A stretch of DNA of 59,240 nt from Desulfovirgula sp. (lineage in GTDB: Bacteria > Bacillota > Desulfotomaculia > Desulfotomaculales > Desulfovirgulaceae), in assembly GCA_020725525.1 (NCBI GenBank), contig DYEX01000010.1, forward strand, positions 1 through 59,240. Reading direction: 5' to 3'. The notes under the pieces are model-generated. The model was not told the origin of the DNA. It did not search any database and saw only the letters and a list, made by a program, of their open reading frames with translations. Position numbers and translations under genes: made by a program. Of this stretch, positions 2,054-51,590 are shown one piece after another (positions within the stretch are counted from its first letter, which is position 1; the number at the start of each line of letters is the position of its first letter).

Positions 2054-2884
2054 TTAATTAACCCTTAAATCGTAGCCGTATTCCTGCGAAAGGGTCGCCA
2101 ACTCTTCTGATAGTGTACGCAAGTACCCGCGGGGGTCGGAAAGGTACTGTTCCAGGTGTTTCAGCGCCCAGGGAAGCATTGTCTGGTAAGCAAATTTTAG
2201 ACGATATACGGAAGTAGGATAAGGGTTCAACGAATCGAGGCAGACTTCCTTAACCCCGGCTTCTTTCAGGCCAGATATAAGCTCCTCCAGTACCCCGGGA
2301 GCGTCGCTCACTCCCGGAAGAACAGGCGCAATAAAGGCCCATATGTGTAAACCTTCGGCAGCGAGCCTTTTCGCGGCCAGGAGGCGTGCCGACGGCGTGG
2401 CGGCCCCGGGCTCTAACTCAGCGGCTACCCTATCATCAGAAGTGGTCACAGTAAAACCGATGGAACAATTTTTCAGCTTCTTGAGTACATCCACATCTCG
2501 TACTACAATGTCAGATTTCGTAAGCAGGTCAATCTCCGCGTTTGGCCACTCCTCCGCAAAGACCTCCAGGGAACTCCTGGCAAGACCGAATTCGGCCTCC
2601 GCGGGCTGGTAGGCGTCTGTAACGGTACCAAAGATAATCCTGCCCGAAAGGTTTCTTTTCCGCTTTAATTCTCGCCTCAAAACCTCCGGGAAGTTGACTT
2701 TAGCGGCCACGAATTCACCCCATTTCCCGGAGTGGCCGGAAAAACGGAGCACCGTGTCCGCATAGCAGTAACGGCACCCGTGGGAGCAGCCGACATAAGG
2801 GTTCAGGCAGTAGCGGTAGCCCGGAATGCCGGTCCTGCTGAGGGCCGTTTTGCAGTAGGTTGGGCTTATCGCCGCTTTGGACAT
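2054..2884 (-). CDS. SPL/Rv2578c-family radical SAM protein
   Basis: The 276-residue product has the radical SAM triad Cys33-X3-Cys37-X2-Cys40 (CSHGCRYC), preceded by the NPYVGC motif that marks the spore photoproduct lyase-like/Rv2578c group. Later blocks FGTVTDAYQP, LLTKSDI, VTTSD and DSLNPYP match the partial TIM barrel of this group. It is shorter than true SplB (about 340 residues) and lacks its C-terminal cysteine region, so DNA photoproduct repair should not be assumed. The start at 2884 is the only good ATG. About 125 bases separate it from the hydrolase downstream. Confidence 0.8.
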   Translation of the reverse strand: MSKAAISPTYCKTALSRTGIPGYRYCLNPYVGCSHGCRYCYADTVLRFSGHSGKWGEFVAAKVNFPEVLRRELKRKRNLSGRIIFGTVTDAYQPAEAEFGLARSSLEVFAEEWPNAEIDLLTKSDIVVRDVDVLKKLKNCSIGFTVTTSDDRVAAELEPGAATPSARLLAAKRLAAEGLHIWAFIAPVLPGVSDAPGVLEELISGLKEAGVKEVCLDSLNPYPTSVYRLKFAYQTMLPWALKHLEQYLSDPRGYLRTLSEELATLSQEYGYDLRVN

Positions 2885-3060
2885 TTTGACGTGGCTCCGT
2901 TCCTTTTAGTCTCCGAAAGTATGGGCAGTATTCTTCCCTTTTCTCTTCTTCCAGGCCGCATTCCCAATAATCGTGACCCAAAATTTAGCGATTGTTTGTC
3001 CTTACAAGCAGGATGGGCAAGACTTGTTCTCTACGGTGGCATTATTCATGGATGACTGGC

Positions 3061-4524
3061 CTATCCCCTCTTTAATCTATCAAACCAGCCAATCACATTG
3101 CCCAACAGCCTGATGGCCCCTCTCTTGATGCGTTCCCCCAGTGGAGGTCCATCCAGGCCAAGCCTGTTGGCCTCCTCCTTCAAACGCTTCGCACAGGTAT
3201 CCACTTTCTGCAGGGCCGATATAAGTCCCGGGTGATTAAACCTCTCTTCTTCCATTACCCACCGGCAGACCTCCAGGCCCGGCTTATACAGACCGTGTTC
3301 CCACTGCGAGCGGTCATAGTATGCCTTATCGACGACGGCTGCCCAGGCAGCCTTCTCGCGCAGCCCCTCTATCCTATTCTCTATCCTGCTCTTTATCTCC
3401 CGGAACAGAAGACACCGGCGTGACGGCCAGAGCCAGCTCAGGAAGTTGATCTTCAAGCGGCGTCTGACTGACCCGATCTTGCCCTCCAGTGCCGCGACCT
3501 TGTGCTCTATGGCCTCCGGCACCAACCGCACCACTTCATATAACGCCCTGTTCAGCTTATCCTTGGCCTCCTCCAGGGGCTGCAGCCGAGCACTGTTAGC
3601 CAGTTTCCTGCCGGCCACAGCGCCGGCTACTGCCCCGAGAATACTCCCAATAGCCGCTCCGACCGGCCCCAGCACCATACCGCCAACGGCCAAACCCACT
3701 TTGCTGCCGATAAAACCACCACCGCCTACCATTGCTACGTCCCTTCCGACATTCCTTGCAGCCTCGGACAAATTAACGCGGCCGTCTGCCAGCAAGACAC
3801 CTTCTCTCACCGCTGCCAGGGCCAGAGTGATGACCGGCACGTGGAAAGGCATCGAATCAATTGCGTGAACACCATGGATTGTGTTATGTACATGCTCCGC
3901 GACCTGGGAGTGGATAAGGTCTTTATCCACTATTACGTGGCTGTTGTCGGCGAAGTGCTGTCCCATTTCAGCATTGACGATGACCGGAATATCCGGGTAC
4001 CTCTCCAGGTGCTCTTTGATAATGGCAGGATCCATGACGCATTTAACCTGAAGGGGGTGGCCGTCCACCAGCAGGTCCCAGCCTTCCTGGTTGGGTGTGT
4101 CGGGAAACTCCACCACATGCCCCTGGGCAGCAAGGTGCGCCGCCACTATCTGCTCGGCCGCGTACCCCTGAAGTCTCTCCACAGCTCCAGTGATGGAGGC
4201 CTCGCTGCCGGTGTAGAACTGGTCATGGACGTACGCGCTGAGCCGGTTAAACGTACTCAGATCCAGCTTGCTGGAGAAATCCATGGCCTCCAGTACCCGG
4301 TCATCCATCATGGCCAGGGCGTGGACGACATCATAGGCCGTGGCACCAGCCACTGCGGCTGGCTCTATTATCCGGTACCACGGACTTCCAGTCAACTCGC
4401 CGAGCCTGTCCTCTGTAATAACCTTCTGGCTGAGTTCTTCATGGAGCTTCTCCCATCGGTAGCGCCGCAATAAGGCAAATCCCACCACTGCAGCAGGGAC
4501 GGCGAGAATTATACCAACCACCAT
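3061..4524 (-). CDS. Membrane-associated protein with PD-(D/E)XK-like domain and glycine zipper
   Basis: The 487-residue protein has a hydrophobic N-terminus (residues 2-19) and a helical region. A restriction-endonuclease-like block follows at residues 115-185 (AEQIVAAHLAAQG, then GWDLLVDGHPLQVKC with Asp150 and Gln159-x-Lys161, then PVIVNAEMG). Next comes a glycine-rich membrane segment (about 265-305, GGGGFIGSKVGLAVGG and similar) and a long charged helical tail. The D...QVK arrangement with an upstream Glu (Glu116 or Glu124) resembles PD-(D/E)XK nucleases. Seeing it joined to a glycine zipper suggests a membrane-bound or pore-associated nuclease-like protein. It is a single gene with no obvious partner. 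Function is unknown, and catalytic competence is inferred from motif spacing only. Confidence 0.55.
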   Translation of the reverse strand: MVVGIILAVPAAVVGFALLRRYRWEKLHEELSQKVITEDRLGELTGSPWYRIIEPAAVAGATAYDVVHALAMMDDRVLEAMDFSSKLDLSTFNRLSAYVHDQFYTGSEASITGAVERLQGYAAEQIVAAHLAAQGHVVEFPDTPNQEGWDLLVDGHPLQVKCVMDPAIIKEHLERYPDIPVIVNAEMGQHFADNSHVIVDKDLIHSQVAEHVHNTIHGVHAIDSMPFHVPVITLALAAVREGVLLADGRVNLSEAARNVGRDVAMVGGGGFIGSKVGLAVGGMVLGPVGAAIGSILGAVAGAVAGRKLANSARLQPLEEAKDKLNRALYEVVRLVPEAIEHKVAALEGKIGSVRRRLKINFLSWLWPSRRCLLFREIKSRIENRIEGLREKAAWAAVVDKAYYDRSQWEHGLYKPGLEVCRWVMEEERFNHPGLISALQKVDTCAKRLKEEANRLGLDGPPLGERIKRGAIRLLGNVIGWFDRLKRG

Positions 4525-46152: not shown

Positions 46153-46178
46153 CTAGCCTACCTCTCCCGGTGCCTCCT
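46135..46178 (-). terminator. Intrinsic terminator of the pan operon
   Basis: On the minus strand AGGAGG-CA-CCGG pairs with CCGG-GC-CCTCCT and is followed by TTTTTTG. The stem starts inside the last codons of panD and ends about 20 bases past the stop. Confidence 0.65.
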
Positions 46179-46536
46179 CCCGCCGGATCTCCACCACCCG
46201 GTTCTGCCCGTCCACCATGACCACCGTGGGCGAAAAACCGGCCGCTTCCTCCGGGGTCATCATGGCATAGGAAATGATAATGACCGTGTCCCCGGGCTGC
46301 ACCAGCCGGGCGGCGGCACCGTTAAGACAGATGACGCCGGAATCCCGGGGCCCGCTGATGACATAGGTTTCAAACCGGGCCCCGTTGTTGTTGTTGACAA
46401 CCTGCACCTTTTCGTGGGGTAAAATGCCGGCCGCTTCCAGCAGCGCCCGGTCAATGGTGATGCTGCCCATGTAGTTCAGGTTGGCCCCGGTTACAGTGGC
46501 CCGGTGAATTTTAGATTTGAAGAGCGTAATAAACAT
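46153..46536 (-). CDS. panD: Aspartate 1-decarboxylase proenzyme
   Basis: PanD (127 residues) makes beta-alanine from aspartate. It self-cleaves at Gly24-Ser25 (YMGSIT) to create the pyruvoyl cofactor. Lys9 (SKIHRA), Arg54 ([12 protein letters not shown]) and the [10 protein letters not shown] block match the family. It is the last gene of the pantothenate operon, 88 bases after panC, and supplies the second substrate for PanC. Its 3' end forms part of a terminator stem. Confidence 0.95.
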
Positions 46537-46624: not shown

Positions 46625-47485
46625 CTACAGCACCCCATCCGGGCTGCCGAGCACAAGGTTATCGATTAACCGGGTAGAGCCAAAGCGTACGGCCAGGGCC
46701 AAAAGGACAGGACCGTCAAGCCTGGACACCGGCTTCAAACCGGGAACTGACCGGATTTCCACGTAGTCGATCCGGGCCCGGGGCTCGGCGGCAATCATGC
46801 CCCGCACCAGTTCCACCAGCCGGTTCGCGTCCCGTTCCCCGGACTCGTAGGCCCGGCGGGCGGCATCCAAACTTCGGGGGAGCACGGCGGCGGCCCGCCT
46901 TTCCTCCGGGCTCAGGTACACGTTGCGGGAACTCATGGCCAGGCCGTCTTCCTCCCGCACCGTGGGCACCGTAACTATTTCCAGATCCATGTTCAGGTCT
47001 TCAACCATACGCCGGATTACCAGGGCCTGCTGGGCGTCTTTCTGGCCGAAAAAGGCCTTGTGGGGGCGCACAATGTTGAACAGCTTGGTCACCACCGTGG
47101 CCACCCCCCGGAAGTGACCGGGCCGGAAAAGCCCGCAGAGGCATTCGGTGAGACCTTCGACATCGACATGGGTGGCAAAACCGGGAGGGTACATCTCCTC
47201 CACGGAGGGATGGAAGACCGCATCCACGCCCACTTCCCGCGCCAGGGACACATCCCGGTCCAGGTCCCGGGGGTAGCGGTCGTAATCCTCCCGCGGGCCG
47301 AACTGCAGCGGGTTGACGAAAATGCTGACCACCACCACATCACAGGCCTCTTTTGCCCGGCGCATGAGGGTGAGGTGACCCTCGTGGAAATAGCCCATGG
47401 TGGGGACAAATCCCACGGTCAGGCCCCGGGAACGGGCCCCGCGCACAAAATCCCTGATTTCTCTGATCTTATGGCAGATGAGCAA
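46625..47485 (-). CDS. panC: Pantothenate synthetase
   Basis: PanC (286 residues) ligates pantoate and beta-alanine using ATP. The HIGH-like nucleotide motif is GFVPTMGYFHEGHLTLMRRA, followed by VSIFVNPLQFGPREDYDRYP, GHFRGVATVVTKLFNIV, FFGQKDAQQALVIRRMVEDL, and the KMSKS-like region LAMSSRNVYLSPEER. It lies 20 bases after panB. Confidence 0.96.
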   Translation of the reverse strand: MLICHKIREIRDFVRGARSRGLTVGFVPTMGYFHEGHLTLMRRAKEACDVVVVSIFVNPLQFGPREDYDRYPRDLDRDVSLAREVGVDAVFHPSVEEMYPPGFATHVDVEGLTECLCGLFRPGHFRGVATVVTKLFNIVRPHKAFFGQKDAQQALVIRRMVEDLNMDLEIVTVPTVREEDGLAMSSRNVYLSPEERRAAAVLPRSLDAARRAYESGERDANRLVELVRGMIAAEPRARIDYVEIRSVPGLKPVSRLDGPVLLALAVRFGSTRLIDNLVLGSPDGVL

Positions 47486-47505: not shown

Positions 47506-48342
47506 TTAATACAATTTGCTCAGCACTTCCTCCGGCATGTCAAAACCATGCTCCGGGCCGGGGAAGGCGCCGCTCTGCACTTCCTCCCGGTAGGCCTTGA
47601 GCGCCCGGGCAATCTCTTCGTGGAGGTTGGCATAACGCCTGGCAAATTTGGGCGACTTCCCCAGGAACATCCCCAGCAGATCGTGGGTCACCAGGACCTG
47701 CCCGTTGCAGTGGGGTCCCGCGCCTATGCCGATGGTGCATACCTCCAGGGTTTCGGTAAGCAGCTTGGCCAGGGGGACGGGTACACACTCCAGGACGATG
47801 GCAAAGACTCCTGCTTCCTGAATGGCCCGGGCGTCTTCAAGCAGTTTTTTTGCCTGGGCCTCGTCCTTGCCCTGCACCTTGTAACCGCCCATCTGGTGAA
47901 TGGATTGGGGTGTTAAGCCCAGGTGGCCCATTACCGGAATGCCGCAGGACACCATAGCCCGGATGGTACCGGCCACCTCCCGGCCGCCCTCCAGCTTGAC
48001 CGCCTGGGCGCCTCCTTCCTGCAGGATGCGGCCGGCGTTGCGCAGGGCCTCTTCCCGGGAAATGTGGTAGGACATAAAAGGCATGTCGCCGATAACCATG
48101 GCCCGCCTGACCCCCCGGGTGACGGCTTTAATATGGTGAATCATATCGTCCATGGTCACGGGAATGGTGGAATCATAGCCTAAAACGGCATTGCCCAGGG
48201 AATCTCCTACTAAAATGGCATCAATCCCCGCTTCATCCACCATCCTGGCCATGGGATAATCGTAGGCCGTGAGCATGGTAATTTTCCGGCCGGTATTTTT
48301 TGCTTCCCGGAAATACGCAGTGGTGACCCGCTGGTTACTCAT
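47506..48342 (-). CDS. panB: 3-methyl-2-oxobutanoate hydroxymethyltransferase
   Basis: PanB (278 residues) adds a hydroxymethyl group from methylene-THF to ketoisovalerate. Its motifs are KITMLTAYDYPMARMVDEAG, DAILVGDSLGNAVLGYDSTI, MGHLGLTPQSIHQMGGYKVQ, and CTIGIGAGPHCNGQVLVTHD, with Mg ligands Asp and Glu in these blocks. Its start overlaps the stop of the DUF2520 gene by eight bases, implying translational coupling. Confidence 0.96.
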   Translation of the reverse strand: MSNQRVTTAYFREAKNTGRKITMLTAYDYPMARMVDEAGIDAILVGDSLGNAVLGYDSTIPVTMDDMIHHIKAVTRGVRRAMVIGDMPFMSYHISREEALRNAGRILQEGGAQAVKLEGGREVAGTIRAMVSCGIPVMGHLGLTPQSIHQMGGYKVQGKDEAQAKKLLEDARAIQEAGVFAIVLECVPVPLAKLLTETLEVCTIGIGAGPHCNGQVLVTHDLLGMFLGKSPKFARRYANLHEEIARALKAYREEVQSGAFPGPEHGFDMPEEVLSKLY

Positions 48343-49258
48343 GAGAGGATACCTCCCTGGATTTGGTTATATCTTCCTCATTGACCGAAGCCATGAATAC
48401 TTCTTCCAGTTGCCGGGCCTGCCCGGCATCAATGCTGCCCTTTTCCCTGGCCACCTGGATGGTGTACAACCCCAGCAGGCGGTAGAGCCGGGACTCCCGG
48501 TTCCCCACCCGGTCCAGGGCCGGCAGGTGCCCGGCAATGGTGGGCACATCTCCCCGGGCCACCGGGCCCGTAAGGGCTTCCACCGGTCCCACCCGCCGGA
48601 TATTGTTTATTGTGCCCCGCACCAGGGGATACAACGCTTCAAAAGCTTCCCTCCGGGAGAGGCCAAACCGGCCGTAAACGCTGGTCGCCAGGTGCATCAA
48701 AGACACCAGGTAGTTGGAAGCAATGCAGGCCGCCGCATGATACAGGGGCTTATCTTCAGCCTTGATGATAAAGGCATGTCCTCTTAAGTCGTCAACCACC
48801 TGCCGGGCCGCGGGAATGGCCGCCTCATCCCCCTCCAGGGCAAAGTAGGACCCGGGGAGGTTTTCCCTGGCCCCCGCAACATCAGCAAAGGACTGTAACG
48901 GGTGGATGGACACGGCCAGGGCCCCGGCTTCCCGGACACCGTGCAGTTCACTGGATGCATGGGCGCCGCTGGTGTGGGCCACCACCTGGCCGGAACGAAA
49001 TCCCCCTTCCCGGGCAATAAGTTCCGACACCGGAGCAATCTCCCGGTCAGGCGTGGTAATAAAAACCAGATCGGCCTTTAGCGTTGCCTCCCAAGGCCGG
49101 TCATAAGCACTGCAACCCAGGGACCGGGCCAGTTTTTGGGCCGGCTCCGGACTCCTGCTGGCCACGGCCACCACCGGGTAACCCCGCTCCTTTAAAAGCA
49201 GGGCCAGGGCGCTGCCCACTTTACCGCAGCCCACCACGGCCACCGAAGGCTTACTCAT
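48335..49258 (-). CDS. Rossmann-fold/DUF2520 reductase-like protein, candidate ketopantoate reductase
   Basis: The 307-residue protein opens with a nucleotide-binding motif (SVAVVGCGKVGSALALLLKE) and has a Rossmann domain (to about 150) and a DUF2520 C-terminal domain. The latter includes KPLYHAAACIASNYLVSLMH and a long helix bundle, as in ketopantoate/6-phosphogluconate dehydrogenase-type enzymes. It heads the panBCD operon, which lacks panE. The position suggests the missing ketopantoate-to-pantoate reduction, by inference. ATG 49258 and an alternative start at 49267 are both possible. A terminator-bearing leader precedes it. Confidence 0.65.
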   Translation of the reverse strand: MSKPSVAVVGCGKVGSALALLLKERGYPVVAVASRSPEPAQKLARSLGCSAYDRPWEATLKADLVFITTPDREIAPVSELIAREGGFRSGQVVAHTSGAHASSELHGVREAGALAVSIHPLQSFADVAGARENLPGSYFALEGDEAAIPAARQVVDDLRGHAFIIKAEDKPLYHAAACIASNYLVSLMHLATSVYGRFGLSRREAFEALYPLVRGTINNIRRVGPVEALTGPVARGDVPTIAGHLPALDRVGNRESRLYRLLGLYTIQVAREKGSIDAGQARQLEEVFMASVNEEDITKSREVSSHE

Positions 49259-49320
49259 CTTTCCCACCCCAACTCCTCAAATCCTGGTTCCGGCAAACAG
49301 AAAAGAAACCCGCGCAATTC

Positions 49321-49353
49321 AATAAAAAATGCCTTCCGGGCTCCCGAAAGGCA
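49321..49353 (-). terminator. Intrinsic terminator inside the pan leader
   Basis: TGCCTTTCGGG-AG-CCCGGAAGGCA on the minus strand is an 11-bp stem (one G-U or mismatch) followed by TTTTTTATT. It lies between the leader and the DUF2520 start, not at a gene end, which is why it looks like an attenuator. Confidence 0.8.
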
Positions 49354-49480
49354 GTAAATGTTCCCCCTCACCTCCGTCTCGGTCCTTCCCGGCTCCAAGC
49401 GGCAAGACTGGTATTTGGTTGTTGAGGTGCTTTTGAACTAAAAGGTATGGTTCCCGCGGGGATACCATCCCACGGATAAA
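49321..49480 (-). promoter_or_regulatory. Leader of the pan operon with attenuator-like structure
   Basis: The minus strand from a promoter TTGTAT-N18-TAAAAT (about 49479-49508) gives a leader of roughly 160 bases. It has a 5' hairpin (GGTATCCCCGCGGGAACC, about 49443-49466), a purine-rich middle (GACGGAGGTGAGGGGGAAC) and an intrinsic terminator just before the first gene. The layout suggests a ligand- or protein-dependent attenuator. No TPP, SAM, T-box, FMN, glycine or cobalamin consensus was found. A 'pan' motif RNA is conceivable but was not confirmed. Confidence 0.5.
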
Positions 49481-49539
49481 TTTTATCATACACCCCGGCA
49501 AAAATACAATAAATTTTTGAAAAAAGTGGCTGAAACAAA

Positions 49540-49571
49540 TAACACGCCTGAGTAAAATTTTTAGGCGTGTA
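49540..49571 (-). terminator. Terminator of the small membrane-protein gene
   Basis: ACACGCCT and AGGCGTGT are perfect arms around a 13-base AT-rich loop. It lies about 46 bases past the stop of the gene at 49617 on the minus strand, followed by TATTTGTTT. Confidence 0.6.
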
Positions 49572-49616
49572 CAATAACAGCAACTGTTATCCTCCGGTAA
49601 AGGATTATGGCTTGTT

Positions 49617-49802
49617 TTAAGCGGCAACAATGGCCAGGCCCAGTAAGAATGCTGTAAGAGCCAGGATGCCCAGTATTAGGCAAGGGAAGGGAAAAAGACC
49701 GAAAGCTACGAGAATACCGAAAATGATCAGGCCAAGAGCGGCGATCAGAGCTCCCCCAACTATGCCAGTTACATTACCGGGAAAGGGACAAAAGATAGCC
49801 AT
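49617..49802 (-). CDS. Small hydrophobic membrane protein
   Basis: The 61-residue protein starts MAIFCPFPGNVTGIVGGALI. It contains two transmembrane helices rich in Gly, Ile and Leu, separated by FGLFPFPCL. ATG 49802 is preferred because AAGAGGAGGAATCCGGT precedes it; the 18 codons upstream are not needed. Small proteins of this kind in Firmicutes are often phage-shock or stress membrane peptides, but no specific family was recognised. It ends in an intrinsic terminator. Confidence 0.55.
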   Translation of the reverse strand: MAIFCPFPGNVTGIVGGALIAALGLIIFGILVAFGLFPFPCLILGILALTAFLLGLAIVAA

Positions 49803-49934
49803 ACCGGATTCCTCCTCTTCTGAAATCATGAAAATGCACCTGGGTGCATCTCCCAATTACATAATATGAATCTTTAGGAAGCAACGTTACATTACAGGCA
49901 ATATTTAACTATGCCAGCGAAATTTAATTTGTTA

Positions 49935-50045
49935 TTACCGGCCTGTTTTAAAGATGCGGTGGTAAAAATGTTCAAAGCAAAACCTGGCTACCTCTTCCTG
50001 CTTTTCCTTGAGTTTTTCGAGGAATTTGTTGCCGTTCTCCCCCAT
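49935..50045 (-). CDS. Very small protein (36 residues) with a strong ribosome site
   Basis: ATG 50045 follows GAAGGAGGAATTGTC at ideal spacing. The frame reads MGENGNKFLEKLKEKQEEVA then RFCFEHFYHRIFKTGR and a stop. It is a charged amphipathic helix without membrane segment. It lies upstream of the small membrane-protein gene and may be co-transcribed. Family unknown; the ribosome site is the main evidence. Confidence 0.5.
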   Translation of the reverse strand: MGENGNKFLEKLKEKQEEVARFCFEHFYHRIFKTGR

Positions 50046-50239: not shown

Positions 50240-51406
50240 ATGCGCGAAACCCGGGAACGGGAACATATCCCACTGGTACAGCTGGCTTTAATTCAATTGC
50301 TGGTACTGTTGCCGGCCTATTGTTTGCCGGCCGTCCTGCCCCTGGTGGAAAAGCAGTGGGGAATCAGCCACGGGGAGGCCGGGATAATGGTGGCCGCCTT
50401 TCAGGCCGGGTACATTGCGGCAGCCCTGGTAGCCCTCCCCCTTACCGACCGCATTGACGCCCGCTATGTGATGGCCGGAGGAGCCATTTTATCGACCTTC
50501 ACCCATACCCTCTTTCCCCTGCTGGCCCGGGATGCCTTGTCGGGCACCCTGCTGCGGGCGCTGGCCGGTGCGGGCCTGGGAGGCATCTACATGCCCGGGG
50601 TAAAAGTAATTTCCCTGGCCCCCAGCTCCCGCGGCCGGGCAGTGGGTTTTTACGTTTCCTCCTACCTGGTGGGCACTTCCCTTTCCTTTGCCCTCACCGG
50701 GGCACTTACCGCTTTTTTAACCTGGCAGGAGGCCTACCTGGCCCTGGCCGGGGTCAGCTTTGCGGCCATCGCCCTTTCTTTCTGGCTGTGGCGCCAACCG
50801 GAAACCGCCTTTTTACCCGGCACCCGGAAAGCAAAAATCCCGGCAAACAGTTCCGGGGGAGATGAAACACCTGGCCTTGCTTCGCAGACCGGGCCACCGG
50901 AACCGGCGCAGGGAATCCAGCAGGTTGAAACCAGCCAGCGTAACCTGGCCATGGTTCTGGTCATCCTGGCCTATGCGGCCCACATGTGGGAGATGTACGG
51001 GTTGCGTTCGTGGTTGACGCCCTTTCTTACCGTCGTTTTCCAAGACCGCTACGCCCAGGCCACTTCCCTGGCGGCCACCCTCACGGCCCTGTCGGTAATG
51101 CTGGGGGCTCCATCCACCCTGGCCGCCGGCTGGCTCTCAGATCGCCTGGGACGCACGGGCACGGCCCTGGCGATCATGCTCACCAGCGCCGCCTGTTCAT
51201 TCACCATGGGCTGGCTGCTACCGGCACCGCCGTGGCTGTTGCTGCCGGTGGGCCTGGTTTACAGCTTGAGGGTACGGCGGACTCACCGATATTTTCCACC
51301 GGACTGGCGGAAATCGCCCCCCGGGAAAAACTGGGCCGCATCATGGCCTGGCAGACCTTTGTGGGTTATATTGCCGCCACCGCGTCCCCCGCGGTTTTTG
51401 GGCTGA
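50240..51406 (+). CDS. MFS transporter, frameshifted near the C-terminus
   Basis: The first 345 residues are a normal 12-helix MFS protein: LVQLALIQLLVLLPAYCLPA, GIMVAAFQAGYIAAALVALP, DRIDARYVMAGG (motif A area), then GWLSDRLGRTGTALAIM in the second half. After LLLPVGLVYSL the frame becomes Arg/Pro-rich. The correct continuation is one frame over: LEGTADSPIFSTGLAEIAPR, then KLGRIMAWQTFVGYIAATAS and helices to a stop at 51546. One missing base near 51267-51275 separates them. The intact gene would be 50240-51546. Substrate unknown; it resembles nitrate/cyanate-type or drug MFS proteins only generally. Confidence 0.75.
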   Translation: MRETREREHIPLVQLALIQLLVLLPAYCLPAVLPLVEKQWGISHGEAGIMVAAFQAGYIAAALVALPLTDRIDARYVMAGGAILSTFTHTLFPLLARDALSGTLLRALAGAGLGGIYMPGVKVISLAPSSRGRAVGFYVSSYLVGTSLSFALTGALTAFLTWQEAYLALAGVSFAAIALSFWLWRQPETAFLPGTRKAKIPANSSGGDETPGLASQTGPPEPAQGIQQVETSQRNLAMVLVILAYAAHMWEMYGLRSWLTPFLTVVFQDRYAQATSLAATLTALSVMLGAPSTLAAGWLSDRLGRTGTALAIMLTSAACSFTMGWLLPAPPWLLLPVGLVYSLRVRRTHRYFPPDWRKSPPGKNWAASWPGRPLWVILPPPRPPRFLG

Positions 51407-51590
51407 TTCTTGACGTTTATGCCGGTCCGGCCGGCTGGATCCTGGCTTTTTCCAGCCTTGGTGCCGGGGTGCTGGGTGGAGCGGCGCTAATGTTTTACCT
51501 TTCCTTCTTGCCGGCAAGCCGGGCCATGGGCGAAAGGCCGCGGTAGAACACGTCTTGCTGTTACAGGCACCACTCACTTAATTCATGCTG

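Follow-up and report, generated by a model that had tools for sequence, protein, structure and literature searches.

The leader of a DUF2520-panBCD operon in Desulfovirgula sp. is a pan motif RNA and a probable transcription attenuator

The RNA leader in front of the DUF2520-panB-panC-panD operon of Desulfovirgula sp. was identified by covariance-model comparison as an ordinary member of the catalogued pan motif family (RF01749). The leader probably acts as a transcription attenuator of this operon, in which an antiterminator would compete with the second hairpin of the motif and the binding of an effector would lead to termination. The locus was studied within a window of 59,240 nucleotides, which is the whole stretch of DNA analysed (contig DYEX01000010.1, positions 1 to 59,240), and in relatives from the same class, the same phylum and beyond. 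Besides the identity of the motif, conserved hairpins, a conserved terminator behind them and a co-varying complementarity between the 5' arm of this terminator and the foot of hairpin II were observed across the relatives.

The preliminary description of this DNA had reported no match to a known riboswitch. No validated ligand riboswitch reached its cut-off, which agrees with that statement, but the leader does match a catalogued structure. A search with the Rfam covariance models, the pan motif included as had been proposed, aligned the window leader with RF01749 over the complete model (positions 1-92 of 92) at 53.3 bits, with a gathering score of 36.2 and an E-value of 1.7e-6 over the whole window. 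RF01749 was the only family at its gathering score; TPP, FMN, SAM, glycine, T-box and the other Rfam riboswitch classes gave nothing at cut-off in the window, and the earlier judgement by eye that the leader is not of the T-box, TPP, SAM, FMN or glycine type was correct. When lax thresholds were applied to positions 49250-50000, two more Rfam matches appeared, both far under their cut-offs. The two tandem hairpins with their conserved bulged A residues were present in the window leader, both in the RF01749 alignment and in an alignment of 40 sequences. One copy of the motif was found in the source genome of the window, and the motif was also detected in the control genome, Bacillus subtilis. 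The pan motif was described in 2010, and the relevant part of that report suggests a role in protein binding and notes a dimeric form (Weinberg et al., PMC2864571).

The leader and its operon lie on the minus strand in the order -10 element, hairpin I, linker, hairpin II, purine-rich tail, terminator and DUF2520-panB-panC-panD, and the pan motif RNA occupies 49370-49471. A promoter had been proposed here and was read in the sequence as an extended -10 element, TGATAAAAT (TGnTAnnnT type), at 49488-49480; it was unlisted in a generic sigma-70 scan of the window, there being no good -35 box. Transcription would start at about 49474, and the leader RNA would therefore begin at hairpin I (49444-49471), the 5' hairpin of the preliminary description, which carries bulged A residues. 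A purine-rich middle had also been described; a purine-rich tail does exist, but the rest of this region consists of an A/C-rich linker between the hairpins and of the highly conserved hairpin II (49374-49402), which is the more conserved of the two and has a basal helix CCG:CGG under a bulged A. The basal 3' CGG of hairpin II and the purine tail AGGUG form the proposed antiterminator strand (49369-49376), placed by the swap test given below, and the proposed partner of this strand is the terminator 5' arm UGCCUUUCGGG (49343-49353). The intrinsic terminator itself (49330-49353) has 10 pairs at -15.7 kcal/mol followed by the U tract TTTTTTATTG; by sequence and fold it stands between the sensor and the first gene, whose start is at about 49267, just where it had been placed originally.

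The first gene (48335-49267) encodes a Rossmann-like/DUF2520 protein (Pfam PF10728, 3.5e-38; also PF10727) for which no NCBIfam model scored above cut-off. It is followed on the same strand by panB (47506-48342; TIGR00222, 362.9 bits), panC (46625-47485; TIGR00018, 354.7 bits) and panD (46153-46536; TIGR00223, 171.1 bits). The DUF2520 gene product is possibly the ketopantoate reductase of the operon. In Francisella, PanG is a novel ketopantoate reductase. The name PanG is applied to YkpB of B. subtilis in the available part of a further report (PMC11487621). An assignment of DUF2520 as PanG was considered and set aside, the link to DUF2520 being unconfirmed and the domain not being found in the available part of PMC6957218. 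Upstream of the leader, a frame for a small hydrophobic protein of 79 aa (49617-49856, minus strand) gave no Pfam match, and an inverted repeat near 49540-49570, after this frame and just upstream of the pan promoter, could be its terminator. A membrane transporter, MFS-like by eye, is encoded on the plus strand (50240-51546) and is apparently split over two frames; the 388-aa frame 50240-51406 has an unlikely tail and the frame 50986-51546 carries on the membrane protein, which suggests a frameshift or a sequencing error before 51406.

The folding energy of the leader was unremarkable (z -0.81; 34 of 200 shuffles folded equally well), and the case for a leader that is more than chance is therefore comparative. 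In an alignment of 40 leaders picked by hand, the window included, 13 of the 20 pairs of hairpins I and II had changed on both sides and 94.4% of cells paired. Neither value was reached in any of 500 shuffles of the alignment, and slid versions of it had at most 47.7% of cells paired. Changes on both sides were seen in 8 of 9 pairs of hairpin I and in 5 of 11 pairs of hairpin II, where 3 pairs were invariant; the pair at columns 99-111 was unpaired in 18 of the 40 leaders. Compensatory changes are thus present among the relatives, and a lack of conserved structure, raised earlier as an objection, is excluded. The promoter was conserved as well, TGnTAnnnT being found within 34 nt before hairpin I in 43 of the 50 genus representatives of the class (mean 3.0 and maximum 9 in 500 letter shuffles). 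A match to the pan motif was obtained in 102 of 113 genomes of the window's class, above cut-off in 98 of them, and in 116 of the 299 genomes of the phylum sample. Two loci of genome G053, L005 before panC-panD and L049 before panB, have the same altered 3' strand of hairpin II, GGACUAAGACGG.

The genes behind the motif were assessed by tblastn with the window's four proteins. Of 109 match rows in the class 108 were examined (G066:C575 was left out), and at least one pan-operon gene lay downstream in all 108 loci; a hand count of the tblastn table gave a downstream DUF2520 gene in 92. The genomes G033, G053, G069, G070 and G072 had two loci each, one before panB and the other before panC-panD, while others of the same group had one match only, before panB (G042, G071 and G073, for example). 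The separate copies before panB and panC-panD indicate that the motif follows the pathway and not a single gene. Published transcript maps include the pan motif, in the parts available: that of Bacillus methanolicus has it before panB-panC-panD (PMC4342826), that of Paenibacillus riograndensis places it in 5' UTRs (PMC5670726), and that of B. amyloliquefaciens counts it among 5' UTRs with the gene unnamed (PMC4634765).

A terminator, defined as a hairpin no weaker than -6 kcal/mol with a U-rich stretch behind it, separated the motif from the first pan gene in 107 of the 108 class loci; in L011 it was assigned by hand, the script having chosen a later hairpin. At a stricter limit of -8 kcal/mol it was found in 96 of the 108 loci from a phylum search and, among the matches listed, in 38 of 53 non-redundant loci from a cross-phylum pattern scan, which yielded at least 80 loci. 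In a large part of the class the 5' arm often reads CCUUUCGG, and in other loci CCUUCUG or CCUUCCG; CC[CU][UC][CU][CU]G was found in 59 of 88 terminator 5' arms. Such a terminator could in principle be constitutive, or belong to a small upstream transcript, and stand unregulated in front of the operon. The unexceptional folding energy would fit this explanation, as would the full leader folding with the terminator formed, but it is very unlikely given that the order promoter, motif, terminator and pan gene is kept and that the 5' arm and the hairpin II foot co-vary beyond the class. The conserved order likewise makes a small upstream transcript, named in the preliminary description as a possible owner of the terminator, an improbable one. 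The original suggestion of conditional termination before the pan operon gains support from the conserved terminator of the class loci and from its 5' arm, which appears to match a competing partner at the foot of hairpin II.

This partner was located by a swap test, the logic of which is that a true second partner should pair more strongly with the leader's own arm than with the arm of another leader. In a first test on 50 genera of the class, with 10-nt windows and whole arms, the foot of hairpin II and its 5' strand scored alike (z -2.5 each). The windows were then shortened to 8 nt, only the last 11 nt of each arm were used, and 38 distant loci were added. The leaders available numbered 188 (108 from the class and 80 pattern-scan matches listed), 160 of which were non-identical, and a set of 88 was formed from one leader per class genus and each distant locus, all with a terminator of -8 kcal/mol or better. 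The strongest peak of the scan in this set fell on the basal 3' strand of hairpin II and the five bases behind it (z -4.5, 0 of 1000 permutations), a z that includes kinship, as do those of the other swap tests, the permutations leaving shared descent in. Mean pairing at the peak was -7.33 kcal/mol for own arms and -6.59 for swapped arms, and the signal was down to z -2.2 at three bases upstream and to z -1.2 at two bases downstream. A z of -2.1 was still seen at the 5' strand of hairpin II. Stratified permutation of the 88 leaders returned z -4.46 (0 of 5000). The class alone was weak (z -2.4; 17 class families alone, z -1.8), and the distant loci alone gave z -3.8 (38 loci, among the matches listed).

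Held-out tests were performed with the 8-nt window and 11-nt arm unchanged. The phylum search had produced about 125 match rows by hand count, made up of 10 class loci, 28 and 80 phylum loci, and 7 rows that were left out, these being among the weakest and none above cut-off. Subtraction of 10 duplicates of the first set, 12 loci without a terminator and 25 loci of genera already used reduced the 108 phylum loci to 61 held-out genera. The peak recurred at its earlier position (z -5.0, 0 of 2000) and was flanked by windows of z -2 to -3 that extended as far as 7 bases upstream, into hairpin II, and when two near relatives of the first set were removed the remaining 59 leaders gave z -5.16 (0 of 5000). 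With one leader per family, drawn 100 times from 86 loci of 45 families, the mean z was -4.5 (range -5.6 to -3.5), and the terminator 3' arm, which served as a control, gave only z -1.6.

The individual pairs were then counted. All 7 ungapped pairs with the own arm were formed in 29 of the 88 leaders (mean 18.3 and maximum 26 in 300 permutations), and at least 6 of the 7 in only 51 of 88 and only 29 of the 61 held-out leaders. The pair types include double changes, the counts leaning towards pairing because only leaders with at least 6 of 7 pairs were used: pair 3 was U-A 30 times and C-G 10 times in the 51 leaders, and in the 29 held-out leaders pair 2 was C-G in 20 and U-A in 5, pair 4 was U-A in 20 and C-G in 3, and pair 6, which lies inside hairpin II, was C-G in 18 and U-A in 3. 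The facing arm position was a U in 10 of the 11 scorable leaders with a basal CAG and in 20 of the 58 with CGG (Fisher p 7e-4), in a table that covered all 96 loci with a terminator, was not thinned by relatedness and contained 9 CAG and 9 CGG leaders that were unscorable. These data support an antiterminator that competes with hairpin II, as an average over relatives and not as proof for the window locus. In L283, L285, L286 and L329, all of one genus, the foot of hairpin II is built differently, and UUGGUC, located behind hairpin II, seems to be used instead in the lineage of L091, L101, L106 and L108.

Other pairings were tried and rejected. The terminator arm is complementary to the apical part of hairpin II, CCGGGAAGG, but here own arms had no advantage over swapped arms (offsets -18 to -14, z -1.1 to 1.1). 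A pairing of CACCUC in the linker with GAGGUG behind hairpin II, seen in the fold of the window leader, breaks by eye in L013, which is of the same genus. The stretch behind hairpin II was also considered as part of a ribosome-mediated attenuator with a leader peptide, for the window has a Shine-Dalgarno-like GGAGGUGA after hairpin II and a TTG-started frame of 47 aa (49398-49255) that overlaps the leader. This explanation is scarcely credible: no ATG, GTG or TTG is suitably spaced behind GGAGGUGA in the window, and this stretch changes together with the terminator arm among relatives.

Folds of single sequences were mixed, and these equivocal predictions were not used as proof of the antiterminator. 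For a nascent window RNA that begins at hairpin I and stops after the terminator arm, the predicted fold joins this arm to the 3' side of hairpin II, and in a transcript from hairpin II into part of the loop hairpin II stays intact (-19.1 kcal/mol), so that the outcome for the alternative helix and the terminator depends on the point at which the transcript is cut. The complete window leader folds with the terminator formed; as the terminator wins once whole, antitermination would need kinetics or help. Among nascent folds of the 108 class leaders, the largest partner of the arm was the hairpin II 3' strand and tail in only 34, the others being hairpin I or the early linker (32), the region after the motif (26), the linker (13) and the hairpin II 5' strand (3).

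We infer the order of events, the direction of the response, from binding to termination, and the nature of the effector. Transcription would start at hairpin I, and once hairpin II is made, the purine tail would catch the 5' arm of the emerging terminator. Through an exchange of strands at the basal CGG pairs of hairpin II the antiterminator, typically CGGrAGG with CCUUyCG, would then arise, and the operon would be expressed. An effector that keeps the base of hairpin II closed would leave the arm free, the terminator would form and the operon would be silenced. Since the antiterminator competes with hairpin II in this scheme, anything that stabilises hairpin II would cause termination. The effector would report that pantothenate or CoA is sufficient, and would probably act via a protein gripping the bulged-A hairpins of the motif.

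Hairpin I seems to be missing from some relatives, which would leave hairpin II, about 28 nt, on its own. The hairpin I signature was absent by a loose pattern in 43 of the 53 non-redundant pattern-scan loci, among the matches listed, a count to be read with the finding that the pattern misses at least two hairpins by eye (L127 and L173). A TTGAC box was seen by eye at the place of hairpin I in the deltaproteobacterial loci L115, L125, L143, L155, L165 and L170 and in the proteobacterial locus L163. A promoter count for the absence of hairpin I gave 4 of 53 among the matches listed, one of them apparently spurious (mean 0.59 and maximum 6 in shuffles). Outside Bacillota the RF01749 cut-off was reached by only 5 of 19 loci. 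In the deltaproteobacterial genome CP070692.1 two copies of hairpin II with terminators were noted; one of these, L162, lies before panD, and no pan gene was detected by tblastn downstream of the other, L138. The exact hairpin II pattern was matched in 5 of 301 Chloroflexi genomes. In the four Chloroflexi loci L120, L186, L346 and L347 a single hairpin lies between a TATA-type -10 and the ATG of a DUF2520 gene, 4 nt before the ATG and with no terminator; it fills nearly the whole 5' UTR, leaving no room for hairpin I. In another locus, L140 (Anaerolineales; 2865-3865, minus strand), a single pan hairpin is found about 70 nt before the gene for a phosphonate-type ABC substrate-binding lipoprotein (PF12974, 4.7e-70), which is a possible transporter member of the regulon for uptake of a B5-related compound.

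The output in the four Chloroflexi loci is presumably translation, and they provide the argument for an alternative in which the regulated step in general is translation or mRNA stability and not termination. For the motif as a whole this is unlikely, because a terminator-like hairpin and U tract are present in the window and in 107 of the 108 class loci, and the same hairpin seems to have a second output in Chloroflexi. The apparently solitary hairpins bear also on the possibility of a small-molecule riboswitch, in which CoA, pantothenate or a precursor would be bound directly by the two hairpins, which would drive the same terminator switch. The position of the motif before biosynthesis genes of one pathway, the conserved nucleotides in the hairpins and the terminator after them are what such a riboswitch would display, and a 2022 review, in the part available, lists CoA with the cofactors for which no riboswitch is known (PMC9971707). 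Direct binding is nevertheless somewhat doubtful, as a form of about 28 nt is small for a metabolite aptamer without further structure, and the relevant part of Weinberg et al. (PMC2864571) takes the simple dimeric form as suggestive of protein binding. The attenuator with a competing antiterminator is retained here as the preferred reading, and the relatives apparently with hairpin II alone point to a compact recognition element.

A wider proposal can be offered tentatively, as one that is possible but short of probable. It holds that a single platform, composed of the hairpin II 3' foot and purine tail and of the terminator arm, is used from Bacillota to Deltaproteobacteria, with a binder of hairpin II switching B5 synthesis off. 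Hairpin II alone (about 28 nt) would be the sufficient unit; it would have been rewired to the start codon in some Chloroflexi and placed before a phosphonate-type ABC binding protein in one genome, and its partner would be a widespread RNA-binding regulator of CoA synthesis.

The window leader belongs to a known RNA family, to which the present analysis adds the suggestion of a testable expression platform and of hairpin II alone as a widespread unit. An antiterminator with named bases makes the pan motif testable by compensatory mutants, including in B. subtilis, and the proposal predicts the sign of regulation. The single-hairpin forms hint at the part that could serve as bait when the missing protein or ligand is sought. 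In the open-access papers searched, no effector or mechanism assigned to the pan motif and no regulatory protein named for it was found, and Weinberg et al. (2010; PMC2864571), in the relevant passage, mention no expression platform. The likeness of the window leader to RF01749 extends to both tandem hairpins at full length, to the bulged A residues and to the position upstream of panB, panC and panD; the difference is that the Rfam model ends 4 nt after hairpin II, which places the terminator and the proposed antiterminator pairing outside the model. In the PyrR-binding pyr leaders of Bacillus and in the trp/TRAP system, an effector bound to the RNA decides between antiterminator and terminator before a biosynthesis operon; the pan leader would be alike in its proposed working, with another sequence and another pathway. 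The TPP, FMN and SAM riboswitches, none of which was at cut-off in the window, likewise place a sensor and a competing helix ahead of a terminator and a biosynthesis operon, and the pan leader differs from them in that its sensor has apparently shrunk to one short hairpin in some relatives.
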